Shown here one piece after another: positions 7,316 through 46,170 of a stretch of DNA of 64,000 nt. A program made the translations under genes and the position numbers. Numbering within the stretch: position 1 is the stretch's first letter; each line of letters starts with the position of its first letter. The notes beneath the pieces are model-generated. The model did no database searches, was not told where the DNA came from, and saw only the letters and a list, made by a program, of their open reading frames with translations. Source of the DNA: Acidibrevibacterium fodinaquatile (GTDB taxonomy: Bacteria > Pseudomonadota > Alphaproteobacteria > Acetobacterales > Acetobacteraceae). The stretch lies in assembly GCF_003352165.1 (NCBI RefSeq), contig NZ_CP029176.1:1488001-1552000 (forward strand). The letters run 5' to 3'.

Positions 7316-7414
7316 TTCTTTTCAATAGGTTATGGTGAGGCTTTCCAGGGTGGCGTCGCGGTTTGTGTGGAAATTGCCTTTGGCGGCGTCTCCGGTTTGG
7401 GGAGCATGACGAGG

Positions 7415-8638
7415 TCAGGCGACGAGATCAAGAGGCATTGAGGCGGGTGGCTCTCCGAGGCTCTGCCACCCGTCGACTTTGCGCATGGTGACCTGCCCGG
7501 ATGCGAGCAATGACCAGAACAGCATCGCCGCGGTCTCTGCCGAAGGCAGGACGGTCTGGGTTTTGATCCGGCGCTTGAACTCCTCGTGCAGGCGTTCGAT
7601 CGCATTCGTCGTTCTTGCCGATTTCCACTGGCTTTTGGGCAATCGGGTGAAGGTGAACAGCCGATCGCCGGCTTCCTCAAGGCTGTCGGCGACACCGCGG
7701 CATTTCAGGCGCCATTTGGCCAGGAACAGCCGGCGCCGGCGCATCACCTCGGCGCTGGTATCGGCGTAGATCATGTCGTTGTAGTCGGCCGTGATCTCCT
7801 CGTGCAGCGCCTCGGGAGCGTGCGCGAGCAGATTTCGATGCTTGTGGACTGTGCAGCGCTGGGTCGGCACCTCGGGCCAAAGGCTGGCCAGGGCGCGTTC
7901 GAGGCCGGCACCGCCATCGATCAGCAACAGGTCCGGCGTCCGCAGACCCCGCGCGATCAGGTCATCGAGCACCGCCCGCCAGGCGGCCTCGCTCTCGCCA
8001 CCCATGTTCTTCACCGCCAGCAAAACCTTCTGCCCGTCGCGGCGGACGCCGAGAACGACCAGCAGCGAGATGTTGGTCGCTTTCCGGTCGAGCCGGACCT
8101 TCACCACCGTGCCGTCGAGGATCAGCCTGACGGTATCCTCGTCGGCCAGGCTCCGCCGGTTCCAGCCGTCCCAGTCCGCCTTGACCTTTCTCCACGTGCG
8201 GCTGACCACGTCCTTGCCCACTGCCCCCTTGAACAACGCCCCCAATGCCCGCCTTACCCGCCGCGTGTTCGTGCCGGCGAGATAGGTCGCCGCAATCAAC
8301 GCCTCCACCTGCTTCGTCATCCGGGCATAACGAGGCAGCGTGGCACTTTGCCATTCCGCCGTTCCACCCCCGGGCTTCGGCATCCGCCCCCGCGGCACCG
8401 TAATCTCGAGCGGGCCGAACGAGCCGAGGATTTGCCGATGACGGACACCATGGCGATATCCTGTTGCCTCGCCACCACGGCGATATCGCTCCCGCCCCAG
8501 CGCCGTCGTCAGCTCCTCCTCCAGCATGTTCTCGATGAACCCGCGGATCCGATCCCGCACCCCCGCCTCAATCGCGTCGAACCAGCCCTCTCCATCAAAA
8601 AGGCTGGCTTCCGGCGTTCCCGTGCTATTCTTCTCCAT
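7415..8638 (-). CDS. IS256-family transposase
   Basis: This 407-aa protein is near the normal family length. An N-terminal MLEEELTTALGRERY region is followed by a DDE core with ILDGTVVKVRL, LLIDGGAGLERAL and the C-terminal NAIERLHEEFKRRIK glutamate region. It is the mutator-type transposase of the outer element. The copy on the other side (16484-17707) differs by a Pro/Ser change in GLRT(P/S)DLLL. Confidence 0.92.
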   Translation of the reverse strand: MEKNSTGTPEASLFDGEGWFDAIEAGVRDRIRGFIENMLEEELTTALGRERYRRGGEATGYRHGVRHRQILGSFGPLEITVPRGRMPKPGGGTAEWQSATLPRYARMTKQVEALIAATYLAGTNTRRVRRALGALFKGAVGKDVVSRTWRKVKADWDGWNRRSLADEDTVRLILDGTVVKVRLDRKATNISLLVVLGVRRDGQKVLLAVKNMGGESEAAWRAVLDDLIARGLRTPDLLLIDGGAGLERALASLWPEVPTQRCTVHKHRNLLAHAPEALHEEITADYNDMIYADTSAEVMRRRRLFLAKWRLKCRGVADSLEEAGDRLFTFTRLPKSQWKSARTTNAIERLHEEFKRRIKTQTVLPSAETAAMLFWSLLASGQVTMRKVDGWQSLGEPPASMPLDLVA

Positions 8639-8715
8639 GGCGTGATCTCCATCGGCGCGACAACGCCGAGTCTGGTGGTTGAACTCACCCGGAGATTACG
8701 CCACCCAGAATTATG

Positions 8716-9967
8716 GGATGGCCCGCTCCTTTCCCCCGGCGGTGTATAGTCTGCTGGGGCCAGCGAAAGGAAAGTGCCATGACGAAAGAGATCGCGGTAT
8801 TGGGGATCGATCTGGGCAAGAACAGTTGCAGTCTCGCGGGGTTGGATGCGAGCGGCGCGGTGGTGAAACGGCGCCGGATGCGGCCGGACAGCGTGACGGC
8901 CTTTACGGCGAAGATCCCGGCGTGTGTGATCGCCATGGAGGCATGCTGTGGCGCCCATTATCTCGGGCGGCTGTTGGCGGCTCAGGGTCACACGGTCCGG
9001 CTGATGTCGCCGGAATATGTGCGCCCGTATGTGAAAGCGCAGAAGAACGATGATCGGGACGCCGAGGCGATCGCTGAAGCAGCGACCCGGCCGACGATGC
9101 GCTTTGTAGATCTCAAAAGCGAGGAACAGCTTGACGTGCAGACGTTGCATCGGGCGCGGGATCGCCTGGTGGTGGAACGTACGGCGCTGATCAATCAGCT
9201 ACGCGCTATCCTTCTTGAACGGGGGATTACCGTGCCAAAGGGGCGGAGCAAGCTCGCGCAATATCTGGTGGGGCGGTTCGATCAGAACGACGGAGGTAGC
9301 ATCGCGTTGTCTCCACGAACGCAAGCGCTCATTGCCGACATGCGGAAGGAATGGCGCGAACTGGATCACCGGATCGAGGCTTTCGACGACGAATTTGTTG
9401 CTCGTGCCCGCGCCGATGAGGCGGCCCGCAGGCTGCTTTCGATCCCTGGTATCGGCCCGGTCAACGCCACCGCGCTGATCGCCGCGATCGGCAAGGGTGA
9501 GAGTTTCGGTCATGGCCGCGATCTTGCCGCCTGGCTGGGTTTGGTGCCGCGTCAGATCACGACAGGCGGACGACCCCGGCTTGTCGGGATCAGCAAGCGC
9601 GGCAACAAATATCTGCGCAAGCAGTTGATCCATGGTGCACGCTCCGCCCTGCCAGGTCTGCTGACCAGCGCCACGCCACTCGGCGGATGGCTGCGGGGGC
9701 TGATCACCAGGGTGCATAAGAACGCCGTAGTCGTCGCATTGGCCAATAAGCTGGCACGGATTGCGTGGGCCGTCTTACGTCACGGCGACAAATTTGACGC
9801 CAAAGCCGTTGGTGTGACGGTGTGACCGAAATCGACCGGTGCTGATATGATGATCGGCTACCGGTCCATGATGTTTGCGGGTGGTGGAAGAAAGATGGCC
9901 TGACAGTCGATCGGTGTTCTGGAAATCTGATGTGTGGAATGGCGGACTTGTCGCCGACAGAATTATG
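8716..9967. mobile_element. IS110-family element inside the IS256-type element
   Basis: The 10-bp sequence CAGAATTATG occurs at 8706-8715 and 9958-9967 and brackets the IS110 transposase gene and its flanks. This suggests insertion at that sequence in the IS256 promoter-proximal region. Exact ends of IS110 elements are hard to see because many lack terminal repeats, so the boundaries are approximate. Confidence 0.55.
8779..9825 (+). CDS. IS110-family transposase (DEDD recombinase)
   Basis: This protein has 348 aa from the ATG at 8779, with AAAGGAAAG just upstream. N-terminal DEDD-type motifs are LGIDLGKN, AMEACCG and KNDDRDAEAIAEA. The C-terminal Transposase_20 motif is SIPGIGPVNATALIAAIG with GGRPRLVGISKRGNKYLR. 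An identical gene lies inverted at 15297-16343. Confidence 0.92.
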   Translation: MTKEIAVLGIDLGKNSCSLAGLDASGAVVKRRRMRPDSVTAFTAKIPACVIAMEACCGAHYLGRLLAAQGHTVRLMSPEYVRPYVKAQKNDDRDAEAIAEAATRPTMRFVDLKSEEQLDVQTLHRARDRLVVERTALINQLRAILLERGITVPKGRSKLAQYLVGRFDQNDGGSIALSPRTQALIADMRKEWRELDHRIEAFDDEFVARARADEAARRLLSIPGIGPVNATALIAAIGKGESFGHGRDLAAWLGLVPRQITTGGRPRLVGISKRGNKYLRKQLIHGARSALPGLLTSATPLGGWLRGLITRVHKNAVVVALANKLARIAWAVLRHGDKFDAKAVGVTV

Positions 9968-10107
9968 AGAACCAGAGCGCGCGGATCTCCATCTTGGTCG
10001 AGAGCTTGCTCTGAGGCCGGATACGTTGACGCAGACTGACCAGTCCATCGGAAAAATCACTTGCAGGCGGGGCGGGCCATACGTTCCACACACTTCACGA
10101 CGCCACC

Positions 10108-15015: not shown

Positions 15016-15296
15016 GGTGGCGTCGTGAAGTGTGTGGACGTATGGCCCGCCCCGCCTGCAAGTGATTTTTCCGATGGACTGGTCAGTCTGCGTCAACGTA
15101 TCCGGCCTCAGAGCAAGCTCTCGACCAAGATGGAGATCCGCGCGCTCTGGTTCTCATAATTCTGTCGGCGACAAGTCCGCCATTCCACACATCAGATTTC
15201 CAGAACACCGATCGACTGTCAGGCCATCTTTCTTCCACCACCCGCAAACATCATGGACCGGTAGCCGATCATCATATCAGCACCGGTCGATTTCGG

Positions 15297-16343
15297 TCAC
15301 ACCGTCACACCAACGGCTTTGGCGTCAAATTTGTCGCCGTGACGTAAGACGGCCCACGCAATCCGTGCCAGCTTATTGGCCAATGCGACGACTACGGCGT
15401 TCTTATGCACCCTGGTGATCAGCCCCCGCAGCCATCCGCCGAGTGGCGTGGCGCTGGTCAGCAGACCTGGCAGGGCGGAGCGTGCACCATGGATCAACTG
15501 CTTGCGCAGATATTTGTTGCCGCGCTTGCTGATCCCGACAAGCCGGGGTCGTCCGCCTGTCGTGATCTGACGCGGCACCAAACCCAGCCAGGCGGCAAGA
15601 TCGCGGCCATGACCGAAACTCTCACCCTTGCCGATCGCGGCGATCAGCGCGGTGGCGTTGACCGGGCCGATACCAGGGATCGAAAGCAGCCTGCGGGCCG
15701 CCTCATCGGCGCGGGCACGAGCAACAAATTCGTCGTCGAAAGCCTCGATCCGGTGATCCAGTTCGCGCCATTCCTTCCGCATGTCGGCAATGAGCGCTTG
15801 CGTTCGTGGAGACAACGCGATGCTACCTCCGTCGTTCTGATCGAACCGCCCCACCAGATATTGCGCGAGCTTGCTCCGCCCCTTTGGCACGGTAATCCCC
15901 CGTTCAAGAAGGATAGCGCGTAGCTGATTGATCAGCGCCGTACGTTCCACCACCAGGCGATCCCGCGCCCGATGCAACGTCTGCACGTCAAGCTGTTCCT
16001 CGCTTTTGAGATCTACAAAGCGCATCGTCGGCCGGGTCGCTGCTTCAGCGATCGCCTCGGCGTCCCGATCATCGTTCTTCTGCGCTTTCACATACGGGCG
16101 CACATATTCCGGCGACATCAGCCGGACCGTGTGACCCTGAGCCGCCAACAGCCGCCCGAGATAATGGGCGCCACAGCATGCCTCCATGGCGATCACACAC
16201 GCCGGGATCTTCGCCGTAAAGGCCGTCACGCTGTCCGGCCGCATCCGGCGCCGTTTCACCACCGCGCCGCTCGCATCCAACCCCGCGAGACTGCAACTGT
16301 TCTTGCCCAGATCGATCCCCAATACCGCGATCTCTTTCGTCAT
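15297..16343 (-). CDS. IS110-family transposase, second copy
   Basis: The translation is identical to that of the copy at 8779-9825 (348 aa), with the same DEDD and Transposase_20 motifs. The start is the ATG at 16343, preceded by the same purine-rich ribosome-binding site. Confidence 0.92.
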   Translation of the reverse strand: MTKEIAVLGIDLGKNSCSLAGLDASGAVVKRRRMRPDSVTAFTAKIPACVIAMEACCGAHYLGRLLAAQGHTVRLMSPEYVRPYVKAQKNDDRDAEAIAEAATRPTMRFVDLKSEEQLDVQTLHRARDRLVVERTALINQLRAILLERGITVPKGRSKLAQYLVGRFDQNDGGSIALSPRTQALIADMRKEWRELDHRIEAFDDEFVARARADEAARRLLSIPGIGPVNATALIAAIGKGESFGHGRDLAAWLGLVPRQITTGGRPRLVGISKRGNKYLRKQLIHGARSALPGLLTSATPLGGWLRGLITRVHKNAVVVALANKLARIAWAVLRHGDKFDAKAVGVTV

Positions 16344-16483
16344 GGCACTTTCCTTTCGCTGGCCCCAGCAGACTATACACCGCCGGGGGAAAGGAGCGGG
16401 CCATCCCATAATTCTGGGTGGCGTAATCTCCGGGTGAGTTCAACCACCAGACTCGGCGTTGTCGCGCCGATGGAGATCACGCC

Positions 16484-17707
16484 ATGGAGAAGAATAGCAC
16501 GGGAACGCCGGAAGCCAGCCTTTTTGATGGAGAGGGCTGGTTCGACGCGATTGAGGCGGGGGTGCGGGATCGGATCCGCGGGTTCATCGAGAACATGCTG
16601 GAGGAGGAGCTGACGACGGCGCTGGGGCGGGAGCGATATCGCCGTGGTGGCGAGGCAACAGGATATCGCCATGGTGTCCGTCATCGGCAAATCCTCGGCT
16701 CGTTCGGCCCGCTCGAGATTACGGTGCCGCGGGGGCGGATGCCGAAGCCCGGGGGTGGAACGGCGGAATGGCAAAGTGCCACGCTGCCTCGTTATGCCCG
16801 GATGACGAAGCAGGTGGAGGCGTTGATTGCGGCGACCTATCTCGCCGGCACGAACACGCGGCGGGTAAGGCGGGCATTGGGGGCGTTGTTCAAGGGGGCA
16901 GTGGGCAAGGACGTGGTCAGCCGCACGTGGAGAAAGGTCAAGGCGGACTGGGACGGCTGGAACCGGCGGAGCCTGGCCGACGAGGATACCGTCAGGCTGA
17001 TCCTCGACGGCACGGTGGTGAAGGTCCGGCTCGACCGGAAAGCGACCAACATCTCGCTGCTGGTCGTTCTCGGCGTCCGCCGCGACGGGCAGAAGGTTTT
17101 GCTGGCGGTGAAGAACATGGGTGGCGAGAGCGAGGCCGCCTGGCGGGCGGTGCTCGATGACCTGATCGCGCGGGGTCTGCGGACGTCGGACCTGTTGCTG
17201 ATCGATGGCGGTGCCGGCCTCGAACGCGCCCTCGCCAGCCTTTGGCCCGAGGTGCCGACCCAGCGCTGCACAGTCCACAAGCATCGAAATCTGCTCGCGC
17301 ACGCTCCCGAGGCGCTGCACGAGGAGATCACGGCCGACTACAACGACATGATCTACGCCGATACCAGCGCCGAGGTGATGCGCCGGCGCCGGCTGTTCCT
17401 GGCCAAATGGCGCCTGAAATGCCGCGGTGTCGCCGACAGCCTTGAGGAAGCCGGCGATCGGCTGTTCACCTTCACCCGATTGCCCAAAAGCCAGTGGAAA
17501 TCGGCAAGAACGACGAATGCGATCGAACGCCTGCACGAGGAGTTCAAGCGCCGGATCAAAACCCAGACCGTCCTGCCTTCGGCAGAGACCGCGGCGATGC
17601 TGTTCTGGTCATTGCTCGCATCCGGGCAGGTCACCATGCGCAAAGTCGACGGGTGGCAGAGCCTCGGAGAGCCACCCGCCTCAATGCCTCTTGATCTCGT
17701 CGCCTGA
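16484..17707 (+). CDS. IS256-family transposase, second copy
   Basis: This is a 407-aa full-length mutator-type transposase, differing from the left copy at the Pro/Ser position in GLRTSDLLL. Both reading frames of the nested element are intact, so both copies may still supply transposase. Confidence 0.92.
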   Translation: MEKNSTGTPEASLFDGEGWFDAIEAGVRDRIRGFIENMLEEELTTALGRERYRRGGEATGYRHGVRHRQILGSFGPLEITVPRGRMPKPGGGTAEWQSATLPRYARMTKQVEALIAATYLAGTNTRRVRRALGALFKGAVGKDVVSRTWRKVKADWDGWNRRSLADEDTVRLILDGTVVKVRLDRKATNISLLVVLGVRRDGQKVLLAVKNMGGESEAAWRAVLDDLIARGLRTSDLLLIDGGAGLERALASLWPEVPTQRCTVHKHRNLLAHAPEALHEEITADYNDMIYADTSAEVMRRRRLFLAKWRLKCRGVADSLEEAGDRLFTFTRLPKSQWKSARTTNAIERLHEEFKRRIKTQTVLPSAETAAMLFWSLLASGQVTMRKVDGWQSLGEPPASMPLDLVA

Positions 17708-17773
17708 CCTCGTCATGCTCCCCAAACCGGAGACGCCGCCAAAGGCAATTTCCACACAAACCGCGACGCCACC

Positions 17774-22159: not shown

Positions 22160-23866
22160 TCAGCAGGCGACGGGGAGGAGGGTCAACTGTCGGAGGTTGC
22201 AAGCCCCCGCAACCACTTTTACCGAACTCGTAAACAAATCGGAACCAGCGCCGGCAACGGCGCCTGGCGTCGCCCCTGCACCGGGGCGCGTCGGCGCTTG
22301 CCCGAGGCCAAGCCCAACCATCGCAGCAATCTCGCCGGTGAGCACAATCTCCGGCGCCTCGCCCGCCGCCGCGGGAGGCAGCACCTCGACCCGCGCCACC
22401 AGGCCACGCACCATCTCCAAAGCCTCCTGCCCATCCGGCCCCGTCAAGGCCTCGGCCAGCGCCGCGACCTTGGCGCGATAGATTTCGCCGAGATTGGGAT
22501 GCAGCCGCGGCACCGCCGGGGTGGCCTGCGCCAATTGCCGGGCCAGACCCGCCTTGCGTGCTTCCAGGTCATCGAGCTGCTGTTGCAGCCCCGGCGCCCG
22601 GAACCCCTCGGCAATCGCGTCAATCAGACCGGCGAGCTTGCGCTCGACCGCGGCCAGCTCCTTGCGCAGATTGGCCGCCTCGGCCCCGGCGGCGGCTTGC
22701 AGCCGGTTCCACTCGGCGGCGAATTCGGCGACGAATTCCGCCACCAGTTCCGGCGCCATCAGCTGCTCGCGCAGCGCCGCGAGAATCAGGTCTTCCAGCG
22801 CGTCGCGCCTGACGGTTCCGTGGTTGGCACAGACCCCCTGACGATGGGCGGCGGTGCAGCCGAGATAATCGCGACCGATGGCGCCGAAGGCGCCGCCGCA
22901 GCCGCCGCAAAAGATTTTTCCGGTCAGCACATGCCGCGGCCGACGGCGCGCCCAGAACCCGGGCGGCAGCGTGTCGGCCCGCGAGGCGGCGCGAATGGCG
23001 CCGAGCCGCTCGGCAGCCCGCTCCCAGGTTTCCTGGTCGATGATGCGCAATTCCGGCACGGTCTCGATAACCCATTCTGCGCGCGGATTCGGCCGCGACA
23101 CCCTTTTCCCGGTCGCCGGGTCTTTGAGGAAGCGCATGCGATTCCACACCAGGCGGCCGATATAGAGTTCATTGCGCAGGATGCCGGTGCCGCGCCCGGC
23201 ATGGCCGCGGATGGTGGTATCGCGCCAGGCGCGCCCCTCGGGGCCGGGCACGCCTTCGGCGTTCAGCGTCTTGGCGATGGCAATCGGGCTGGCGCCGCCG
23301 GCAAAGAGGGTGAAGATGCGGCGCACTATGGCCGCCTCGGCCTCGTTGATACTGCGGGCGCCGCGCACCGGCTCGCCATTGGGGTCGAGCTGGCGGGCGA
23401 TGTCATAGCCATAGCAGAGCCCGCCGGCCGAGCGCCCGGCGGCGACCCGCCCGCGCAGGCCGCGGCGGGTCTTATCGGCGAGGTCTTTGAGAAAGAGGGC
23501 GTTCATCGTGCCCTTGAGGCCGACATGGAGTTCGGAAATCTCGCCCTCGGCGAGGGTGACGAGGCGGATGCCGGCGAATTTGAGCCGCTTGAACAGACCG
23601 GCGACGTCTTCCTGGTCGCGCGAGAGGCGGTCGAGGGCTTCGGCGACGACGACGTCGAAGGCGGCCTCGCGCGCGCTTTCGAGCAGCGCCTGATAACCCG
23701 GGCGCAGCGTCGAGGCGCCGCTGAGCGCGGCATCACGATAGACCTGCACCAGTTCCCAGCCCTCGCGGGCGAGGCGTTCCTTGCATAGGCGCAACTGGTC
23801 TTCGATGGATGCGTCGCGCTGGTTGTCGGAGGAATAGCGGGCGTAGATGACGGCGCGGAGGGTCAT
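22160..23866 (-). CDS. large serine recombinase
   Basis: This 568-aa protein has a resolvase catalytic domain (VIYARYSSDNQRDASIEDQL with the active-site serine, EALDRLSRDQEDVA), a recombinase domain (YGYDIARQLDP, SINEAEAAIVRRIFTLF), a zinc-ribbon domain (KIFCGGCGGAFGAIGRD) and a coiled-coil arm (EAANLRKELAAVERKLAGL). It should integrate or excise the element. Only the first 25 or so residues are near-identical to the recombinase of element B. Its last 120 bp recur at 62761-62880, diverging right at the stop codon. Confidence 0.93.
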   Translation of the reverse strand: MTLRAVIYARYSSDNQRDASIEDQLRLCKERLAREGWELVQVYRDAALSGASTLRPGYQALLESAREAAFDVVVAEALDRLSRDQEDVAGLFKRLKFAGIRLVTLAEGEISELHVGLKGTMNALFLKDLADKTRRGLRGRVAAGRSAGGLCYGYDIARQLDPNGEPVRGARSINEAEAAIVRRIFTLFAGGASPIAIAKTLNAEGVPGPEGRAWRDTTIRGHAGRGTGILRNELYIGRLVWNRMRFLKDPATGKRVSRPNPRAEWVIETVPELRIIDQETWERAAERLGAIRAASRADTLPPGFWARRRPRHVLTGKIFCGGCGGAFGAIGRDYLGCTAAHRQGVCANHGTVRRDALEDLILAALREQLMAPELVAEFVAEFAAEWNRLQAAAGAEAANLRKELAAVERKLAGLIDAIAEGFRAPGLQQQLDDLEARKAGLARQLAQATPAVPRLHPNLGEIYRAKVAALAEALTGPDGQEALEMVRGLVARVEVLPPAAAGEAPEIVLTGEIAAMVGLGLGQAPTRPGAGATPGAVAGAGSDLFTSSVKVVAGACNLRQLTLLPVAC

Positions 23867-23966
23867 GGGCGCAGCTCCAGCGGCAGGGCTGGCGATGATG
23901 TCGCGCCATCGCCCTGCCGGTCAAGAATGACGCATGGGTTTCGCGGTAAGTCGCGCGGCATGACGG

Positions 23967-24242
23967 TCAATGCCAGCGGCCATGATGCATGAGAACTATG
24001 ACCGCGCCTATCACCAGCGCGGTGGCGGCCATAATGGCCGTCATGTCAATGGTGCCGCAGCCGAGGCTGAGGCGCCGATAATCCTCCCGCGTCGCCTGCC
24101 TGGCCAGCAGGCGGGCAATCCAGGCGAGGGTCGGATGCGCATTCTGGAGCGGCACCGGCTTGGGTGTGGCCTCACGGCGCGCGGCGGCGTTGGTTGTTTC
24201 CGGTTTCGGCGATATGCGCCGGGTGTTCAGAGTATGCGTCAT
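23967..24242 (-). CDS. small single-span membrane protein
   Basis: This 91-aa protein starts MTHTLNTRRISPKPETTN and ends in one hydrophobic segment (TAIMAATALVIGAVIVLM) followed by a basic tail. It is conserved almost unchanged in element B (45430-45705), with the same distance to the recombinase gene. The function is unknown. Conservation in both copies argues it is a real gene. The next 220 bp up to 24466 hold an AT-rich region without a gene I can support. Confidence 0.7.
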   Translation of the reverse strand: MTHTLNTRRISPKPETTNAAARREATPKPVPLQNAHPTLAWIARLLARQATREDYRRLSLGCGTIDMTAIMAATALVIGAVIVLMHHGRWH

Positions 24243-24466
24243 GTTCAATCCTCCCGTTTGGCGGACGAGGCCTTCACTCGCCGCGGTAATGCACGACAAC
24301 TCAAAATTCAGAACTGTCAATAACTCATGATAACGTGGCGGAATACTAATAGCAAGGACTAAAATTATCGTATCTTCTATATTAAGGGATTCCGCAGAAG
24401 CGCATTCCGGGGCAAGTCGGAGAAAAGGCGCCCTTTTGGCGCGGCTGTGCTGATGTTGAGGGCGGG

Positions 24467-24620
24467 TCAGAACAGATGGTCGATGACCAGCATGACGACG
24501 CCGACGATGTGACCGATGCAGATGACGATTTCGAGGCCGCGGTCGGCAACTTCGCGCCAGGTCTTCTCGCCCGGGTGGGAACCGGAGCGCTGACGCGCGG
24601 CATTGTGGCCGTGATGCCGG
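24467..24620 (-). pseudogene. truncated small membrane protein (intact in element B)
   Basis: The frame ends SHPGEKTWREVADRGLEIVI and then CIGHIVGVVMLVIDHLF, matching the C-terminal half of the 79-aa protein at 45931-46170. The front half and start codon are missing. Upstream the sequence turns into the 3' end of the PEP-CTERM gene, so cargo has replaced the front of this gene. Confidence 0.75.
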
Positions 24621-24624
24621 GCTC

Positions 24625-25326
24625 TTACGCGCGGCGTAAGCGCCTCCGAAAGAAAGCGATGGTGCCGAGGGCGGCGCCAAGGATCGTCACCGAAGCGGGC
24701 TCCGGCACGTCAGTGTTTGAGGTAGAGGTAACGAAAGACAGATTGGCGACTACCACTCCGGTGATGCCACCACTGCATGTGCCACCAGAAATACCGAGGC
24801 AGACATCAGCGCTGAAATAATTACTATCGCTGTTCGCCACGAAATCAGCGAGAGTAACATTGTCGACGGTGAAACCCAGCGTGCCCGTATAGGGGCTCTG
24901 GCCGCCATGCCCACAGGTCGCCACGCTGCAAGCGATGGCGTAATCCCAATACCCAGCGCCGCCAGTGTGCAACGACCCGGTAGAGGAGTAAACAGAGGAG
25001 AATCCAGGGGTGATATTCGCAACGGAAATATTTGGCGCGCCACTCAGATCCCAGGTCAAGGGATAACCCGCGCCGGAATTGATGAAGCCAACCCCTGAAG
25101 CGAGCGTAACGGTCACGGTAACATTCGGTCCACCATTGTCGTTCAGGGTAACGGTGCCGTATGGCGAGGAAACCAGATTAGTGCTGCCTGTCCCAACATA
25201 ATCGTTCAGGCTGTAACCCAGCACCGTTGCGGCGGCTGGCGTGGCCGCGAAGTTCATGCCCCCGAGAGCAAGAGAGAGACTCGCAGCGAGTTTTCCAAAC
25301 TCCGCGACATATGCTCTGAACCGCAT
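24625..25326 (-). CDS. PEP-CTERM sorting-domain protein
   Basis: The protein has 233 aa from the ATG at 25326, with GGGAG upstream. It has an N-terminal signal peptide (LAASLSLALGGMNFAATPAAA), a Thr/Ser/Gly-rich exported body with four cysteines, and a C-terminal VPEPASVTILGAALGTIAFF followed by RRRLRRA. That is the PEP-CTERM tripartite signal (motif, transmembrane helix, basic tail) used by exosortase systems linked to exopolysaccharide. No exosortase gene is in this window. Confidence 0.9.
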   Translation of the reverse strand: MRFRAYVAEFGKLAASLSLALGGMNFAATPAAATVLGYSLNDYVGTGSTNLVSSPYGTVTLNDNGGPNVTVTVTLASGVGFINSGAGYPLTWDLSGAPNISVANITPGFSSVYSSTGSLHTGGAGYWDYAIACSVATCGHGGQSPYTGTLGFTVDNVTLADFVANSDSNYFSADVCLGISGGTCSGGITGVVVANLSFVTSTSNTDVPEPASVTILGAALGTIAFFRRRLRRA

Positions 25327-25862
25327 CGTTGCTCTCCCAGATTGTCTTAAAGGTGGCGCCATTGGTCGTCATAGTTTCGTTAAAGCATTAACATTACCTC
25401 TACGTCAATCAAAATTTCGTGCCAGTTGGTTTCAGAACGCTCCCTGTCGGGCAGAAAACCGACCACTTTCCTGATTGAGGGGGGCGCGAAAAGAGCGGCG
25501 GCCAGCGGCGCAAGCCGGATGAGGCGCCGTTTTGGGACGCTTTCTGTCCAGCAACTCAGTGGCATGGAGCCGCACGAAGAGACATAACCTCTCGAGTCCG
25601 GCGATGCGGGGCAGCCCGGGCAGCGGCTTGACCTGATGGCAGGACTTTCAGCTGAATATCAAAAAAATCTGGTTGCGATACGCTTTTGGCCAAGAAATCA
25701 CGGCCCCGCATAGTACAAGACGGCGCCAAGGGCATGACAGATGCAAATTGTCTCGGCGCGCTACAGAACCTGAACAACGGGTGTAGAGCGAGATAGTGCT
25801 TATTGTTCTGAGGTGGACTCGTAAAGCAGCGCGGTGTTAGCGCGCTGCTTTACGATTACTTA

Positions 25863-27008
25863 TCACAGACTTGCCAGCCCTGGCGGCGCGGGCGCCGGGC
25901 CCGGTGGCGCTGGCGCTGGGGCGGGTGCTGGCGCTGGCCCGGCGAGCGGTCCGGGAGGCGCGGGAGGTGGCCCAGGCGGTGCCGGGGCGGGCCCTGGTAC
26001 CGGGCCTGCGAGCGGCCCGATTGCGTGCGGGGCCGGTGGTGGCGGCGGTCCCGGTGGTGGCGCTGGGGCGGGTGCTGGCGCTGGCCCGGCGAGCGGTCCG
26101 GGAGGCGCGGGCGCTGGCCCAGGCGGTGCCGGGGCGGGCCCAGGTGGCGGGCCTGCGAGCGGCCCGATTGCGTGCGGGGCCGGTGGTGGCGGCGGTCCCG
26201 GTGGTGGCGCTGGGGCGGGTGCTGGCGCTGGCCCCGCGAGCGGCCCAGGCGGCGCGGGCGCTGGCCCAGGCGGTGCCGGGGCGGGCCCAGGTGGCGGAAG
26301 CGTTGCCTGCTGGATAGGAATGGGTGGCCCCAGGCGTGGCGTCGTCGAGACGGTTCCGAGCGTCGGGTTCGACGGCGGCAGGCCGAGCAAATGGTCGACC
26401 CGGCTGACGACGGCTGGCGTCAGGGTGCGTCCCGTCTCGTCGGCGAGGGTTTCACGCGCGTTGGTGATGGCCTGCTGGCGGAGGGCGATTTGCTGCGGGG
26501 TTCGCGTCGGCATGGACAAGGCCGACAGCATGGCGCGGTCATAGGTTGCTATTTTCCCGACCATCGAACGCGGCGAGGCGTGCGCGAGGGCCGTTGGCGA
26601 GGCATGCGCGGCGTTGAGCGGTCCGAGCGCCGCGGTCAACTGACCGTGTGTGGCGTAATGGCTGCGGAACGGTCGCGTGGTATGAACCAAGGCCACTGGT
26701 CGCGGCGAAGATATTTGCGCATGCCGCGTGGAAACAGGCGCGACCACGCCGACGGTACCATGCCCCGGCCCGGGGCCATGCCCGGCGGCGCCCGCCGCTC
26801 CTGCAGCCCCTCCGGCCGCGCCGGCACCGGCACCCCCCGCACCACCGGCCCCGCCAGCGCCAGCGCCGCCAGCGCCAGCCCCGGCGCCTCCGGCGCCACC
26901 TTTAGCCCAAGCGGGTTGTGTGAGCAGTCCGCCGCCGATGAAACAGGCGGCCAACATCATAGCGGCAGTCTGACGCTTCCTTGCCGCGTAAGGCATCTTA
27001 CGGGTCAT
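25863..27008 (-). CDS. secreted Pro/Ala-Gly-rich repeat protein
   Basis: The protein has 381 aa from the ATG at 27008, with GGAG upstream. The signal peptide RQTAAMMLAACFIGGGLLTQ ends at PAWA. Then come a Gly/Ala-rich segment, a non-repetitive middle (about residues 70-205, SRVDHLLGLPPSNPTLGTV) and a C-terminal proline-rich region of about 48-residue units (PAPAPAPPPGPPPPPAPHAI, GPLAGP). It is probably an extracellular, cell-wall or surface protein. The extreme repeat content makes exact function unguessable. Strong plus-strand open frames here are antisense shadows. Confidence 0.75.
   Translation of the reverse strand: MTRKMPYAARKRQTAAMMLAACFIGGGLLTQPAWAKGGAGGAGAGAGGAGAGGAGGAGGAGAGAAGGAAGAAGAAGHGPGPGHGTVGVVAPVSTRHAQISSPRPVALVHTTRPFRSHYATHGQLTAALGPLNAAHASPTALAHASPRSMVGKIATYDRAMLSALSMPTRTPQQIALRQQAITNARETLADETGRTLTPAVVSRVDHLLGLPPSNPTLGTVSTTPRLGPPIPIQQATLPPPGPAPAPPGPAPAPPGPLAGPAPAPAPAPPPGPPPPPAPHAIGPLAGPPPGPAPAPPGPAPAPPGPLAGPAPAPAPAPPPGPPPPPAPHAIGPLAGPVPGPAPAPPGPPPAPPGPLAGPAPAPAPAPAPPGPAPAPPGLASL
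25875..26300. repeat. 144-bp tandem repeats in the Pro-rich gene
   Basis: The sequence repeats with a period near 144 bp, about three copies, each containing GCGGGTGCTGGCGCTGGCCC and GCGTGCGGGGCCGGTGG. It encodes the 48-residue Pro/Ala unit. Such units expand and contract by slippage, so length variation between strains is expected. Confidence 0.8.
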
Positions 27009-27376
27009 GGCTTTGCTTCTCCGGGCTGTCCCAGCGACGACGGCGATGCACGATATGGTAAAATCATGATTAACGACAACCCCCTCCAGGTCGCCGCAGA
27101 CGATGGTCATGCCGGGGAGGGAGGCCTACGCCACCGGACAAAATAATGTCCGAGCCGCGCCCAAAAGGGATGGCTTCACTATCGGCTTGGCAGCATGAGG
27201 AAAAATCGGTGCATATTTTACTCGGGGCAACGCGCCGACGTGTGGCGGAAACGCAACAACGCCGGCAGCTTTCCGCTGCATTGCACAAATTTAAGGTGAG
27301 GCCAGACGCGGCGGCGTTATACCTCGTCCTGCGCGAGGCCATGCCTCGCACTTTCTTGGACGTTTCCTCCCTAAAC

Positions 27377-27406
27377 TTGGCGGCCTTTCCGGCCGCCAAT
27401 TTTTTT
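27377..27406 (+). terminator. strong Rho-independent terminator without an assigned gene
   Basis: A 9-bp stem TTGGCGGCC/GGCCGCCAA with loop TTTCC is followed by seven T on the plus strand. The surrounding stretch 27009-27591 has no convincing protein gene on either strand. A short transcript on the plus strand, perhaps a small RNA, would end here. Confidence 0.75.
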
Positions 27407-27591
27407 GCGCACTCGCCGCCGCCGTGCAAGTCCAAATCTATCAGGTAACGGCTATCCTGACGTAATCCCCGGCTTTCTCTCCCCCCAGGGTAGTCTCTTT
27501 CCCCCGGGGCATGGACAGCACAGACACACACGCCGCCCCGGCAAGCCCCAGGCGGAGCGCCGTTTTGGCGCCCCTGGTCTCTGCCTGCGCC

Positions 27592-27936
27592 TCAGCGCCC
27601 GGAGGCGAGGCGATGCTCGCCGGGATGCGGGGTGCCGAGACGGTAGAAGCCGGAGAAGGTGCGCGCCCAGGAGAAATCCGGGGCAAAGGCCCAGACCTCC
27701 TCGGTAGCGATGGGACCGGCAGGAAGACGCGGATGCCCCGCCCCGGTGCCGACCAGGCAAAGCGCCTCGCGGCCGGCAATGCGGAACTGCTCGAGCAGCG
27801 GCGCCGCGCGCAGGATTTTCGCCGAAGGCGGCTTGCCCTCGGCCAGCGCCTGCAGGTCACGGCGCAGGGTCTCGAGGCGGAGAAGGGTGGCGGTGGTGTC
27901 ATCGCCAGGATGAGCCTGGCCAAAAATGAGCGGCAT
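27592..27936 (-). CDS. DUF6634 family protein
   Basis: The protein has 114 aa from the ATG at 27936, with GGAG 8 bp upstream. The pattern LRRDLQALAEGKPPSAKILR, then GHPRLPAGPIATEEVWAF and WARTFSGFYRLG, matches DUF6634, small proteins frequent on alphaproteobacterial plasmids and integrative elements. The function is unknown. It is cargo of element A, downstream of the PD-(D/E)XK gene on the same strand. Confidence 0.75.
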   Translation of the reverse strand: MPLIFGQAHPGDDTTATLLRLETLRRDLQALAEGKPPSAKILRAAPLLEQFRIAGREALCLVGTGAGHPRLPAGPIATEEVWAFAPDFSWARTFSGFYRLGTPHPGEHRLASGR

Positions 27937-28048
27937 GGGAAAAACTCCAATCACACGCCCGCGCGAGCGGACACGGCCAGCGGCACGGGCAGACACGGGA
28001 AAGGGGAGGGAACGCCGGGCCCGATTATCCGGGCCCGGCCTCCCGGGG

Positions 28049-28705
28049 TCAGAGGTCCGCCGGCGGCATCACGCCCCGCCGCGCCATCAGGCCGGCAAGC
28101 GCCCGGCGCAGGCTTCGCTTCTCGGCGTCCGCGGCCAGGAACTCGGCCGGGGTGGCGCTGAAGCTCGGCCGCCCGAATATCCGGAACAGCACCCGGTCGA
28201 GACCCAGCACCACGAAAGCGGCGATGTCGAAATCCCCCGCCCGATAGGCGAAGACGCCGCGCGCCGAGCGGTGAAAGCCGCGGGTGAGGCGAAAGCGGTA
28301 GCATCGCCCGCGCGGCGGCTGTGCCGTGGTCTTGACCTGCAACCGGATGAGCCCAACCGCCGGGCGGGCCTCGGTGAGAACGTCATAGGGGGCGCCGGGG
28401 CCGGCGGCATGGGTGGACAGGCCCCAGCGCATCAGCCGCGACTGCACCAGATGCGCCCCGGCCTCGCCGACCATGATATCGCTCGGCCCCTCGCCGATAT
28501 CGCATGGCAGGGGCGGCAGCCACTCTTCCTCCGCCGCTGGCGCCGGCAGCGCTATCGCGCGCTTTGGCCGCGGGACGCGGATGGGCTGCCCGCCATCCGA
28601 GGGCAGGGGCGCCGGGACGGCATGCGCTCCCGGCCTCTGTGAGCAGGGGCACGCGTCTCCCGACAAGAGAGCAGGTGTGGTAGGAAATCGATTAGCTTGT
28701 GACAT
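28049..28705 (-). CDS. PD-(D/E)XK endonuclease-like protein
   Basis: The protein has 218 aa from the ATG at 28705, with GGAG upstream. The C-terminal half reads GEAGAHLVQSRLMRWGL, YDVLTE, VGLIRLQVKTT and then YRFRLTRG, the E...D...(Q)xK order of PD-(D/E)XK nucleases similar to those linked with group I introns. The first residues (MSQA) and the leader before them are shared with the unrelated 79-aa protein of element B, so this gene replaced another behind a common leader. Nuclease activity is inferred. Confidence 0.72.
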   Translation of the reverse strand: MSQANRFPTTPALLSGDACPCSQRPGAHAVPAPLPSDGGQPIRVPRPKRAIALPAPAAEEEWLPPLPCDIGEGPSDIMVGEAGAHLVQSRLMRWGLSTHAAGPGAPYDVLTEARPAVGLIRLQVKTTAQPPRGRCYRFRLTRGFHRSARGVFAYRAGDFDIAAFVVLGLDRVLFRIFGRPSFSATPAEFLAADAEKRSLRRALAGLMARRGVMPPADL

Positions 28706-29495
28706 TGCGGACTCCAATGTTGCAGGTCAGGCCGGGTGTGGTGTGTCAGCACCATGCTCGGCCGCTTGGCTTCCGGGGGGCGCCCGGCGCGCGGGAGAGG
28801 GAAGAAAATGTTTTCCCGTCTCCTGATATGAAGATAGTATCTCTATTGAGTAACTTCAAGAGAAAAATCGACAAAGCACCAAAAAATATTGCACCACCTC
28901 TTGCGTGACTGTTCTCACACCAGAGGATGCGAGACGAAGGCCAAAGGCTTCAATCCCATCGCCTTCAACCTCACTATCAAGCGCAGAATAATTCCTGCCG
29001 CCGTCATGACAGGCCGAAGAGTTACTGCATGGGCGTCGACAGCGGCAATCCCTTAACCGCTCTTTACCATAAGCGCTGGCTGATGATTGGCAGAAAACCG
29101 GGAAAAATTATCGAGCCAGCGGTTTAGAAGTATTTTTTCCTTTTTCTTTTGCCTTCCATCGCCAGGACTGTCGGCGCCGCGGAACCGGCGGCGCCGTGCC
29201 CGCACAAGGCGGGCACGGCGCCAAGGCTCGGGGCAGACGGCAAGGCCACGGACCTTGGCAAGCCGGAATTGGATGGCGGGAGCAAGTTCCTGGGATACCG
29301 GAGGGGAATGTTGACAATAAAAATTGAGGGGAGAGAGGCAGAAAGAAAGGCAGAAAAGAGCGAAATGGCGCGCTTATACGTCGCTTCGCGACGTTGCTGG
29401 GGGAGGTGGTAGAAATTTTTGCTCAATAAGTATTTGTTCCTTGCATGGCGGCCGGGTAATATTTTGCAGTGGACAATTTTTACCCGGAATAACGC
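28706..29495. other. conserved non-coding leader of the relaxase gene, element A
   Basis: About 790 bp without a convincing gene, closely matched by 46171-46962 in element B. It contains an AT-rich stretch near 28830-28900 suitable for divergent promoters and the perfect 14-bp hairpin at 29190-29222. Conservation of non-coding DNA next to a relaxase suggests the transfer origin and promoters lie here. Confidence 0.55.
29190..29222. repeat. perfect 14-bp inverted repeat upstream of relaxase (oriT candidate)
   Basis: GGCGCCGTGCCCGC, loop ACAAG, then GCGGGCACGGCGCC. The identical hairpin is at 46658-46690 in element B. It is not followed by a T run on either strand, which argues against a simple terminator. 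Relaxase recognition sites often contain such inverted repeats; no nick site has been identified. Confidence 0.55.
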
Positions 29496-32400
29496 ATGGC
29501 CATCTACCATTTTAGCGTCAAGATTATCTCCCGAGGCCAGGGCCGCAGCGTCATCGCCGCCGCCGCCTATCGCGCCGGAGAGAGGCTCCGCGACCACCAT
29601 CTCGGCCAGTGGCAGAATTACACCCGCAAACAGGGCGTCGTGCATCGCGCCATCATCCTCCCCGCCGGTGCCCCGGAAGCCTGGGCTGACCGCACCACCC
29701 TGTGGAACGCCGTCGAGGCCGCCGAGCGCCGCCGCGATGCCCAGCTCGCCCGCGAGCTGGAAATCGCCCTGCCGCGTGAACTCTCCAAGCGTGCGGCCAT
29801 CCGGCTCGCGGAGGATTTTGTCCGGCGGGAATGCGTCGCCCGCGGCATGGTCGCCGATATCGCCATCCATTGGGTACAAGGCAGCGACGGCAAGCCGCAG
29901 CCGCATGCCCATATCCTGCTGACCCTGCGCGGCGTCGAAGGCGGCGGGTTCGGGCCCAAGCGGCGGGAGTGGAACGCGACCGCGCTCTTGCAGCACTGGC
30001 GCGAGGCCTGGGCCGACATCGCCAATGCCTGCCTCGCCGAGAACGGCCATGATGTCCGCATCGACCATCGCTCGCTGGAGACACTCGGCCTCGACCTGAT
30101 GCCGCAGGTCAAGCTCGGCGCCGGGGTGCGCCGCCGCGAGGCCGCCGGCGAGGTGACCGAGCGCGGCGCGCGGGCTCGGGACGACCTGGCGTTCAACGGC
30201 GATAAACTCCTCGCCGACCCCACGATGGCGCTCGCCGCCATCACCGCGCAGCAAAGCACCTTCACCCGCCGCGACATCGCCCGCTTCATCAACGGGCACA
30301 CCGTCGATGCCGAGCAGTTCCGGAACGTCCTGGCGAGAGTCATGGCCTTGCCGGCGCTGGTCAGGCTCGGCCGCGATGGCCGGGGCGAAGAGCGCTACAC
30401 CACAAAAGAGATGCTGGCGTTGGAGAGCGGTCTTGCGGCAACCGCCGAGGCGCTGGCGCAGGAGCGGCATAAGTTTGTCGACCCGACGCTGTGCCGCCGG
30501 CACGCCGAGGCTGCCAGGCTGGGGGAGGAGCAGACGCTGGCGCTCGGCCGTATCACCGGCGCCACCCGTCTCGCCGCGGTGGTTGGCCATGCCGGCACCG
30601 GGAAGAGCACTCTGCTCGGGGCGGCGCGGGCGGTGTGGGAAGCGGCGGGCTATCGCGTGCGCGGTGCCGCGCTTTCGGGGATTGCCGCCGAGGGGTTGCA
30701 GCAGGGGGCGGGGATAGAAAGCCGCACCATCGCCTCGCTGCTCCGGCAATGGGGGCAGGGGCGTGAGACGCTTTCGGCGCGTGATGTCCTGGTCGTCGAC
30801 GAGGCGGGGATGGTCGGCTCGCGCGACCTCGCCGCCGTGCTGGCGGCGGTGCAAGCGGCGGGAGCGAAGCTGGTGCTGGTCGGGGATGCCGAGCAGTTGC
30901 AGCCGATTGCCGCCGGCGCCCCGTTCCGCGCCATCGTCGAGCGGGTGGGGGCGGAGGCGCTGACCGTGGTGCGGCGCCAGAAGCAGGACTGGCAGCGCCA
31001 GGCGACGGCAGAGTTGGCCACCGGCCAAACCCGCGCGGCGCTGGCGCGCTACCAGGAGAAGGGCATGGTTTTGGCCGCCATCAAAGCGGAGGAGGCCAAA
31101 ATCCGGCTGATTATCGACTGGCAGGCGGGCCGTCGTCGTGACCCGGCGGCGAGCCGCATCATCCTTGCCCATCGCCGTGCCGATGTCCGCGACCTCAATG
31201 ACCGGGCGCGGGCGGTGCGGCGGGAGCGCGGCGAGCTGGGCCCTGACGTCATGCTGCCGACCCGGGACGGGAAAAAACCCTTTGCGGCCGGCGAGCGCAT
31301 CTATTTTCTCCGCAATGAGCGCTCTCTCGGGGTGAAGAACGGCACGCTTGGCACGCTCATTGCCATCGCCGGTGCGGGGGCGGGCGCTCATCTCAAGGTG
31401 CGGCTCGATGGTGGGCGCGAGGTGGTGTTCGCGCTCAAGGACTACGACGCCCTCGACCACGGCTATGCCGCGACGATGCACAAGGCCCAGGGCGTCACCG
31501 TCGACCATGCCCATGTGCTGCTGAGCGCGAGCATGGACCGTCATCTCACCTATGTCGCCCTCAGCCGCCATCGCGAGAGCGTGCGGCTGCATTGGAGCGA
31601 GGAGGAGATGGGCAACAGCGCCCGCATGGCCGAGCGGCTCGCGCGCGCGCGGCGCAAGGAGAGCACGCTCGACTATGAGCCGGCGGCGGTTTCGACAGGC
31701 GCCGGCTTCGCCGTCCGCCGCGGCCTTGTCCCTGAGAGCGCTATCCTCGTTCCCGAAGCGCGGCCGGCGCCGCCAAGGGCCATGCCGCAACCGGCGGCGG
31801 CGATGGCCAAGGCACCGCCAGTGCCGGAGCCAAAGCCAGCGCCGAAGGTTATCGCTGCGAAATCGCCGTCCGATGCACCGCGGCCGCAGCCGCAACCGGT
31901 GCCCTTGTTCCGCAGGGTGGTGCCCTTGTTCCGCAGGGGGGGGCTGACTCTGAAAAGTGCCATCGCCGTCGTGCTGCCGTCTTCGGCCGGAACGCCATCG
32001 CCTCAGGCAAAAGCCCAGCCTTCGGCAAAGCCGGTGGCGAAGGCGCAGCCAGTGGCAAGGACGACGCCAAAGCCGCCGGCTGCCATGGTGGTTGCGAAAG
32101 CGCCGGCGCAAAAGCCGGGGCGCATGTCGCGGCTTCGCCAGGCAATGACCAAGGCGAAGAGCGCCATTGCCGCGATGTGGCCGTCTTCGGCGGGGGCATC
32201 GTCGCCATCCAAGGCGGCGGCAGGCACGTCGACGACGTCGCCGAAGCCGATGGCGAAAGCACAATCGGTACAGTCGATGGTGAAGGCGCCTACAATGGCG
32301 AAAGTGCCGTCAAAAGCGCCGGCGGTGCCATCCGCGACGGTGAAATCATCGACGGAGGTTTCCGCGCCGTCGCGGCAAGCGCCGGGCGCGGCGTTGTCTT

Positions 32401-32912
32401 CACCACAGCCGCAGAGGCCGCGGCCGGTGGCGGAGCCAGCGCCAAAGCCGCAGGCGGCACCACACTCGGCGCCGCGGCCGGAACCAAAGCCGGTCCCGTC
32501 GACAACGGAACCCGCCAGGCCGCCACCGCCGCCGCGGGTGCCGGAAGCCGAAGCGCCCGCTGCCAACGTGGCAGAAACTCTGTCTCGGTATTACGGCGAG
32601 CTTCTCGCCAGCACCCGTGCCCGTAAGAAGCTCGCCGCCACCTGGCAGGGCACCGCGGCGGAGGAGGAAAAACTCGCAAACGTTGTCACCGGCGCGTTGC
32701 GGGCCGCGTGCGCCATCGTCGACGACTCGGCGGTATTCGCCATGCTGCGCCAGCAGAACCCCGCCGAGGCCCGCCGGGTTGCGGCGTTCGCCAGGAAAGA
32801 CCGCGAGACGCTCATCGCCCTGGTGCTGCAGCAAATGCCGCAGCCCAGGCCGGCGCCAGAACCAATGCCCGAGCGAGACCTGGAGCCGTCCGGCTTCGGT
32901 ATGCGAATGTGA
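29496..32912 (+). CDS. traA: Ti-type conjugative relaxase/helicase (TraA/MobQ-like)
   Basis: In this 1138-aa protein the relaxase domain starts MAIYHFSVKIISRGQGRSVI with catalytic Tyr25 (AAAAYRAGER) and the metal-binding histidines at about 137 and 139 (PHAHILL). A UvrD-like/RecD2 helicase domain follows: Walker A GHAGTGKST at about 364, VVDEAGMV at about 433, GDAEQLQPI and AATMHKAQG. Residues about 740-1030 are low-complexity Ala/Pro/Lys repeats. A helical C-terminal domain (ETLSRYYGELLASTRARKKL) precedes the stop. It would nick oriT and unwind DNA during mobilization. No type IV secretion genes are present, so transfer would need a helper. Confidence 0.92.
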   Translation: MAIYHFSVKIISRGQGRSVIAAAAYRAGERLRDHHLGQWQNYTRKQGVVHRAIILPAGAPEAWADRTTLWNAVEAAERRRDAQLARELEIALPRELSKRAAIRLAEDFVRRECVARGMVADIAIHWVQGSDGKPQPHAHILLTLRGVEGGGFGPKRREWNATALLQHWREAWADIANACLAENGHDVRIDHRSLETLGLDLMPQVKLGAGVRRREAAGEVTERGARARDDLAFNGDKLLADPTMALAAITAQQSTFTRRDIARFINGHTVDAEQFRNVLARVMALPALVRLGRDGRGEERYTTKEMLALESGLAATAEALAQERHKFVDPTLCRRHAEAARLGEEQTLALGRITGATRLAAVVGHAGTGKSTLLGAARAVWEAAGYRVRGAALSGIAAEGLQQGAGIESRTIASLLRQWGQGRETLSARDVLVVDEAGMVGSRDLAAVLAAVQAAGAKLVLVGDAEQLQPIAAGAPFRAIVERVGAEALTVVRRQKQDWQRQATAELATGQTRAALARYQEKGMVLAAIKAEEAKIRLIIDWQAGRRRDPAASRIILAHRRADVRDLNDRARAVRRERGELGPDVMLPTRDGKKPFAAGERIYFLRNERSLGVKNGTLGTLIAIAGAGAGAHLKVRLDGGREVVFALKDYDALDHGYAATMHKAQGVTVDHAHVLLSASMDRHLTYVALSRHRESVRLHWSEEEMGNSARMAERLARARRKESTLDYEPAAVSTGAGFAVRRGLVPESAILVPEARPAPPRAMPQPAAAMAKAPPVPEPKPAPKVIAAKSPSDAPRPQPQPVPLFRRVVPLFRRGGLTLKSAIAVVLPSSAGTPSPQAKAQPSAKPVAKAQPVARTTPKPPAAMVVAKAPAQKPGRMSRLRQAMTKAKSAIAAMWPSSAGASSPSKAAAGTSTTSPKPMAKAQSVQSMVKAPTMAKVPSKAPAVPSATVKSSTEVSAPSRQAPGAALSSPQPQRPRPVAEPAPKPQAAPHSAPRPEPKPVPSTTEPARPPPPPRVPEAEAPAANVAETLSRYYGELLASTRARKKLAATWQGTAAEEEKLANVVTGALRAACAIVDDSAVFAMLRQQNPAEARRVAAFARKDRETLIALVLQQMPQPRPAPEPMPERDLEPSGFGMRM

Positions 32913-45930: not shown

Positions 45931-46170
45931 TCAGAACAAATGGTCGACGACCAGCATGACGACGCCGACGATGTGACCGATGCAGATGACGATTTCGAGG
46001 CCGCGGTCGGCAACTTCGCGCCAGGTCTTCTCGCCCGGGTGGGAAGCGGGGCGCTGACGCGCGGCATATCCGGCACTCTGGCCATGATGCCGGGCCTTGG
46101 GGCGAGAGGAGATGACGGCGGCTCCCGACAGGGAGCGCGGTGTGCTACGGTGTTTGGCAGCTTGTGACAT
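45931..46170 (-). CDS. 79-aa membrane-anchored protein, unknown
   Basis: The start ATG at 46170 has GGAG upstream. MSQAAKHRSTPRSLSG is followed by a polar segment (SHPGEKTWREVADRGLEI) and a C-terminal hydrophobic stretch (CIGHIVGVVMLVVDHLF). In element A only the C-terminal half of this gene survives. Its leader and first codons there precede a PD-(D/E)XK gene instead. The function is unknown. Confidence 0.65.
   Translation of the reverse strand: MSQAAKHRSTPRSLSGAAVISSRPKARHHGQSAGYAARQRPASHPGEKTWREVADRGLEIVICIGHIVGVVMLVVDHLF

Follow-up and report, generated by a model that had tools for sequence, protein, structure and literature searches.

Shared leader and its two cargo genes

How can one leader and the same first codons stand before two different genes within a single genome? 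The question arises in the window, by which we mean the whole 64,000-nt stretch analysed here from Acidibrevibacterium fodinaquatile (Acetobacteraceae; contig C1, positions 1488001–1552000, of a 4.04-Mb genome in four contigs). A 14-mer, GCAATGTCACAAGC, occurs in it exactly twice, at 28695–28708 (copy A) and 46160–46173 (copy B), both on the minus strand, as compared to zero occurrences in 100 shuffled sequences; the stretches that include it, 28694–29628 (A) and 46159–47095 (B), are 91.6% identical. Behind the A leader lies an open reading frame (ORF) of 218 aa (28705–28049), and behind the B leader one of 79 aa (46170–45931). We consider it probable that the leader together with the first codons is a self-contained antisense control cassette, of the type known for the antisense RNAs RepX, SymR, and FinP, that is reused before unrelated genes.

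The A cargo (28049–28705, minus strand) is a PD-(D/E)XK-like protein: it matches Pfam PDDEXK_5 at E 0.063, under the family cut-off, and tblastn aligns it to seven plasmid records at 36–40% identity across 44% of the protein, two of them annotated as “group I intron-associated PD-(D/E)XK endonuclease.” The B cargo (45931–46170, minus strand), delimited by its ORF and by sequence comparison, has a hydrophobic C-terminal half. A plasmid search with this 79-aa protein returned no match, and its alignment, scanned against genome contigs, yielded a single relative. A diverged relative (51% over residues 25–76) lies upstream of a leader on a plasmid-like contig (G000:C3:1862–2008; L013).

The earlier note, written from the sequence alone, held that one leader and its first codons precede both the nuclease-like gene and the 79-aa gene, a claim that the repeated 14-mer and the 91.6% identity bear out. 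It also called the two cargoes unrelated. That description stands for the proteins without their first 12 residues, when likeness is lost (51 of 300 shuffles score as high), but not for their starts, which show a weak likeness over the first 26–27 residues (score 47, reached by 0 of 300 shuffles). Finally, the back part of the 79-aa gene does persist in A, as that note had proposed from position 24467 onward: residues 19–79 match A near 24470–24643 at 81% identity, and DNA and protein matches delimit the remnant, which has neither leader nor first codons, to 24467–24628 on the minus strand.

Leader structure and distribution

We built two covariance models (CMs) of the leader, R1 from nine leaders and R2 from the 37 leaders of alignment A8. 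The search behind A8 gave 58 matches at E ≤ 0.05, 21 of them on the opposite strand or partial, and a cut at 2e-5 gave the 37, from 35 chosen sources; left out were the C1:2787k leader, own duplicates, and L127, whose locus is broken off and whose hairpin was not found by our script. Folding of eight leaders gave in every case a hairpin 1 and, on its 3′ side, a second one at the ribosome-binding site (RBS). In copy A the leader RNA (28694–28765, minus strand; R1 92.4 bits, R2 80.7 bits) folds into two hairpins and runs through the linker UGACC, the RBS, and the start codon to GCU; copy B (46159–46231, minus strand; R1 94 bits, R2 81.6 bits) folds as the same element, and in both window copies the second hairpin pairs across the AUG. 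Within A8, 17 of the 21 pairs have changed on both sides, and the covariation score is 0.241, as compared to 0.067 for shuffled alignments (0 of 500 as high) and 0.017–0.031 when the alignment was slid.

The leader is widespread. R1 matched nine of 385 genomes of the class at E ≤ 1e-3. At E ≤ 1e-4, R2 recovered the leader from 79 of 299 family genomes, with 125 matches in all and 41 of the 102 sampled genera represented, and matched 14 of 398 genomes of the phylum, two of these outside the class; these R2 genome counts are low because strict filters scored only 12–16 candidates per genome. The 45 best-scoring R2 matches, minus four already used (L175, L176, L177, and L183), make up a set of 41 further loci, in which L170 and L171 lack a start codon where one is expected and may be false. 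Among viral contigs, a strict leader pattern found one candidate and a looser one 13, of which eight were kept; L146, L148, L151, L155, and L156 were dropped by eye as coding coincidences. R1, run on the eight kept viral leaders, matches all of them at E ≤ 1e-5.

First codons and a predicted antisense promoter

Conservation does not stop at the start codon. Counting from the G of GCT as position 0, over 27 cluster representatives, information is 1.5–1.9 bits at positions 0–2, at most 0.41 at 4–13, and then rises again at positions 14–19, TANCAC (1.42, 1.31, 0.32, 0.83, 1.04, and 0.72 bits); past position 19 most values fall under 0.4, apart from those at 22 (0.80), 27 (0.54), 28 (0.46), and 53 (1.04). 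TANCA stands at offset 13–15 from GCT in 22 of the 27 representatives and once elsewhere. The further loci have it at this offset in 28 of 41 cases, as compared to six hits at 2173 other positions. In leaders with AUG-GCU, the strongly kept T14 (1.42 bits) is the third base of codon 6, while the freely varying N16 (0.32 bits) is the middle base of codon 7; a wobble base is thus kept beside a free coding base, which points to a signal in the nucleotides, not in the peptide. On the opposite strand TANCA reads TGNTA, and TGNTA is the form of an extended −10 promoter.

By the position of TANCA, the predicted antisense extended −10 of copy A is TGGTAGGAA (28678–28686, plus strand), a weak hexamer within the first codons of the nuclease gene, and that of copy B is TGCTACGGT (46143–46151, plus strand), within those of the 79-aa gene. 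By analogy with the ends of RepX and SymR, the predicted antisense RNAs would span approximately 28692–28768 in A and 46157–46234 in B, both on the plus strand. Upstream of hairpin 1, the base A is enriched in the adjoining 8 nt (0.41, as compared to 0.21 further up; n = 27), which may equally be the composition of a sense promoter or an antisense terminator.

From these elements we infer a mechanism of antisense transcription, repression, and cargo exchange. The sense mRNA would present hairpin 1, a UNACC linker, and hairpin 2, the last enclosing the RBS and reaching the start codon. From the opposite strand, the TGNTA promoter in about codons 7–9 would direct an antisense RNA of ∼75 nt, also with two hairpins, that would start opposite the conserved GGCU, cover the start codon and RBS, and end beyond hairpin 1; its pairing with the mRNA would block translation of the gene behind the leader. 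Because the antisense promoter would sit in the coding start, the first codons would have to travel with the leader, and unrelated proteins would therefore begin alike (MSQA...TTP, MADSENT, and MPKA). Cargo would be swapped by recombination behind or around the cassette, and such swaps in this genome may have produced the combinations of leader with the 79-aa gene, with the nuclease gene, and with a gene for a third protein. Variation in the loops from copy to copy could set specificity.

Relation to RepX, SymR, and FinP

The closest structural relative is the repA leader of the IncQ1 plasmids R1162 and RSF1010, the locus of RepX (RF00043). R2 aligns end to end with this leader (L158), scoring 40.6 bits (E 2e-9, 675 bases searched), at the place where RF00043 itself scores 98.5 bits. 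The two share hairpin 1, a linker (UAACC in repA), an RBS within hairpin 2, AUGGCU, and the TANCA offset, at which repA carries TATCA; the two-domain structure of RF00043 and the spacing of its motifs over RBS and start codon are thus found in our leaders. Conversely, RF00043 aligns end to end with L102 at 31.9 bits and scores 28.3 bits on L132, as compared to its gathering score of 55, which the leaders do not reach; an Rfam identity for the leader was accordingly rejected, no family attaining its gathering score on the leaders scanned. The known RepX target, moreover, is one gene, repA, unlike the varied cargo seen here. PMC8136791 describes RepX antisense RNA as FinP-like and as overlapping the RBS and initiation codon of repA-repC, so that FinP and RepX have already been compared there.

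SymR, the antisense RNA of the type I toxin–antitoxin pair SymR/symE (RF01809), provides a second point of contact. Across 6 kb of E. coli K-12, R2 scores best at 3336–3411 on the minus strand (18.8 bits, E 0.0036), with ends within 1 nt of those annotated for SymR (3336–3412, plus strand); in the other direction, the best score of RF01809 is 40.1 bits (E 3.1e-4), on the antisense strand of L196, under the gathering score of 61. PMC1891008 reports that the symE ORF contains the SymR promoter and that a change of CATTCT to CACTCC that is silent in SymE abolishes SymR, and describes SymE as an SOS-induced toxin of the AbrB superfamily. Taking the first base of symE codon 2 as position 0, the abolishing changes map to positions 11 and 14, the latter being the conserved T of the leader family, and the SymR −10 proven there has the same offset as the TGNTA of the leaders; symE has TA at 14–15, but no TANCA. 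We take the change at T14 as the strongest outside support for the antisense promoter. The cassette would thus resemble SymR/symE in having, by prediction, an antisense RNA over the gene start and its promoter at the same offset within the first codons; it differs in that the match is distant (18.8 bits) and in its cargo, which here includes the small hydrophobic protein of B and the nuclease-like protein of A.

The likeness to FinP/traJ (RF00107) is fainter. FinP pairs with the RBS of traJ (PMC9977716), and an antisense RNA over the target RBS is what we predict here. The best R2 hit in 6 kb of plasmid F, 2982–3046, is the leader of traJ, which begins at 3050 (12.1 bits, E 0.12, in a record that does not annotate FinP); the next-best hit in the E. 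coli and F stretches scores 7.5 bits.

Phage antirepressors are also under antisense control, as in P22 sar/ant and P1 c4/ant. These can be likened, by description only, to one leader whose cargo is a Bro-N/KilAC phage antirepressor (L122).

Exchangeable cargo behind the leader

The ORF behind the leader begins at either of two set positions in 36 of the 37 leaders and 39 of the 41 further loci: at an AUG that abuts GCU (MA...), or 9 nt upstream of there (MSQA, MPKA, or MPEA). What follows is diverse. Of 75 cargo proteins, 67 have at least 40 aa; stripped of their first 12 residues, these fall into 42 clusters under a BLAST cut-off of E 1e-3, which is a ceiling since BLAST misses remote kin. 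The antirepressor of L122 aside, seven other cargo proteins that were scanned gave no Pfam match at E 0.01. The protein starts of L149, L159, L184, and L190 combine RR with a hydrophobic segment, resembling by eye a twin-arginine export signal. In another genome (G073), six leaders (L124, L131, L136, L139, L141, and L143) are each followed by an ORF of 21–28 aa starting M(A/V)DSE, possibly a leader peptide.

On the divergent side, upstream of the leader, motifs identify an XRE-like gene at 24 of 78 loci and a ribbon-helix-helix-like gene at 10 of 78; by eye, two calls were wrong (L178 and window copy B) and four XRE-like genes had been missed (L122, L123, L154, and L163). Pfam assigns a helix-turn-helix or ribbon-helix-helix type to six of seven divergent genes sampled, one of them below cut-off. 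Window copies A and B have a relaxase gene, not a repressor gene, on this side.

A bolder form of our reading would unite FinP, RepX, SymR, and these leaders in one superfamily of portable antisense cassettes. The leader would then be a true exchangeable slot, with any gene behind it silenced and in many cases additionally controlled by a divergent XRE or ribbon-helix-helix repressor; the near-identical copies, of which this genome has seven, would cross-silence their cargo in trans. We hold this extension tentatively, as having a little less than an even chance.

Other copies in the genome and the origin of copy A

The CM finds eight leaders in the genome at E ≤ 1e-3: A, B, three more on C1 (2741k, 2757k, and 2787k), two on C3, and C1:3616753. 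C3 also encodes a replication protein with 65% identity to one from Acidisoma, in keeping with a host in the Acetobacteraceae. Seven are of one close type, five with an intact 79-aa gene behind them (B, C1:2741k, C1:2757k, C3:2574, and C3:20610) and two with the nuclease gene (A and C1:2787k). The more distant eighth, C1:3616753 (50.2 bits), precedes a different protein of 220 aa, also with an MSQA start.

These copies bear on the history proposed in the earlier note, in which a 4-kb cargo block was inserted inside the 79-aa gene behind the leader, A arising from a B-like ancestor with its promoter kept. In its favor, 4 kb does separate the tail of that gene from the A leader, and the leaders of A and B match. 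In C1:2757k (2756961–2765182), however, the order is leader, intact 79-aa gene, one piece of the DUF6634 region, 2.7 kb of other sequence, the remaining piece of the DUF6634 region with its small RNA (sRNA), the Pro-rich block, ∼1.3 kb, and a recombinase gene; here the cargo follows a complete 79-aa gene and thus need not split it. In C1:2787k (2784284–2788577) the leader is followed by the nuclease gene and DUF6634, then by a joint, that 1.3-kb stretch again, and the recombinase; C1 2768k–2800k yielded no match to the 79-aa gene. The two copies are 98% identical over 3048 bases, from near 25480 in A numbering through the recombinase. A tracks them to about 25480, then has a gene for a PEP-CTERM protein, and then a B-type stretch holding the 79-aa tail and a 91-aa gene (96% identity to B over 23792–24603), before a switch of recombinase type within ∼97 bp (23792–23888) to the recombinase of C1:2757k/2787k (97.5% identity). 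By sequence comparison, A is thus a mosaic with at least three joints, and its supposed halves of the 79-aa gene belong to different element types, as do its 79-aa tail and its recombinase.

Leader–nuclease units also occur in two other genera, as relatives of the A protein behind leaders L098 (G241; local score 246, shuffled maximum 67) and L191 (G335; 248, shuffled maximum 58), so that the nuclease gene has a leader of its own and need not stem from insertion into the 79-aa gene. These came from the leader searches, since a nuclease search of 120 relatives gave matches in the own genome only. At L098 a second leader follows 1.1 kb on, with a gene that resembles residues 1–83 of the A protein (95, as compared to 78 for shuffles) and that, by our reading of the sequence, appears frame-shifted further on, at the end of the locus; its product clusters alone among the cargo proteins despite this likeness to the nuclease N-terminus.

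The simple insertion is therefore scarcely credible, contradicted by C1:2757k, C1:2787k, the leader–nuclease units elsewhere, and the mosaic structure of A. Nor did the opposite case gain support, that B is a simple deletion of an ancestral A: five of the seven close copies have the leader before the 79-aa gene, as does a 3338-base contig from another species of the genus (G002:C24, probably JAJZBM010000059), where an MmgR-type sRNA follows at the contig end. The earlier interpretation of A and B is thus partly supported as a whole; the idea of exchangeable cargo behind a shared leader and first codons was right, and applies more widely than was proposed.

Alternative readings of the leader

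Several results weigh against the antisense cassette. The fold signal is modest: mean z-scores against shuffled sequences (n = 36) are −1.84 for the whole leader, −2.58 for hairpin 1, and −0.76 for the 3′ part, the division into two parts being misplaced for L102, L154, and L143, and z-scores of the eight singly folded leaders range from 0.16 to −2.91. Since A8 was fitted to the model, its pair counts are flattered, and several members of the further set of 41 closely duplicate either a training leader or one another (L185/L149, L187/L145, L166/L173, and L168/L172). TANCA is missing from offset 13–15 in 13 of these 41, including both loci outside the class, one of which also has no start codon at the expected place, and the predicted −10 of copy A (TAGGAA) is weak. 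An Rfam scan at E ≤ 1 placed no family at the window leaders; among the other leaders scanned, RF00043 matched only L102 and L132, both below threshold. The traJ match, at E 0.12, is not significant alone.

Two further points of this kind also favor a sense-only translational switch, in which hairpin 2 would hide the RBS until a protein, ligand, or temperature opened it, UANCAC would serve as a binding site or folding partner in the mRNA, and no antisense RNA would be made. A consensus scan of both strands of 28600–28950, around the A leader, called neither promoter nor terminator. FinP works with FinO, and FinO/ProQ (PF04352) was found in none of six genomes of the genus and in seven of 299 of the family, so that a FinO-like helper is no general part of the cassette. 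That the second hairpin encloses the RBS suits such a switch as well. Yet the complement of UANCAC has the form of an extended −10, at the offset of the −10 proven for SymR in PMC1891008, and the closest structural relative of the leader is a known target of antisense RNA; we therefore judge the sense-only switch unlikely. Less probable still is that the leaders are only a shared promoter region and an inherited start, hitchhiking with recombining elements and having structure without a role. The copies in this genome are indeed recent, recombining relatives, but covariation across 37 divergent leaders, spread over 41 of the 102 family genera sampled, and a conserved wobble base beside a free middle codon base all speak against it. 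The antisense cassette thus remains our preferred reading.

Other features of the window

Between the two ends of the mosaic, A carries on the minus strand a large serine recombinase gene (22160–23866; Pfam Resolvase and Recombinase), which is 97.5% identical to C1:2763449–2765182 and differs in type from that of B; the 91-aa membrane-type gene (23967–24242), of B type; the PEP-CTERM gene (24625–25326; Pfam PEP-CTERM, E 2.6e-4), which A alone of the copies has beside the leader and which has DNA matches of 67–73% in genus genomes; a Gly/Ala/Pro-rich protein gene without Pfam match (25863–27110); and a DUF6634 gene (27592–27936; Pfam E 3e-6, 27.6 bits, cut-off 27). The Gly/Ala/Pro-rich gene contains 147-bp tandem repeats (25906–26346), and a similar gene start is found near a leader of another genus (L116). 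On the plus strand are an MmgR/suhB-type sRNA within the cargo (27342–27413; RF00519, 42.3 bits, gathering score 41) and, divergent from the leader, a MobQ/TraA relaxase–helicase gene (29496–32912; NCBIfam TraA_Ti and MobQ). Further copies of the sRNA lie at C1:1355903, 2760390, and 3325114 and at C3:2986 and 21022, with a stronger one at C1:1619510; they are mobile copies of a conserved sRNA.

Elsewhere, the window contains a perfect 2.7-kb inverted repeat (7349–10084 and 15038–17773, arms 4953 nt apart). Part of the 3′ end of a tRNA-Lys(CTT) gene (286–361) recurs 7 kb on (7270–7332), a pattern expected from integration of an island into a tRNA gene.

Implications

RepX, SymR, and FinP are already known as single systems, and have so far been studied as single cases; our literature search, which reached few subscription papers, met no description of the wider alphaproteobacterial leader family. 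If our reading is true, phage-like, plasmid, and mobilizable DNA of the Alphaproteobacteria would share one portable silencing cassette, and the common first codons of otherwise unrelated proteins would be explained. The leader would also offer a handle on many small cargo genes of unknown function, among them those for the nuclease-like protein, the membrane peptide, and the antirepressor, and cross-silencing between co-resident elements would become directly testable.

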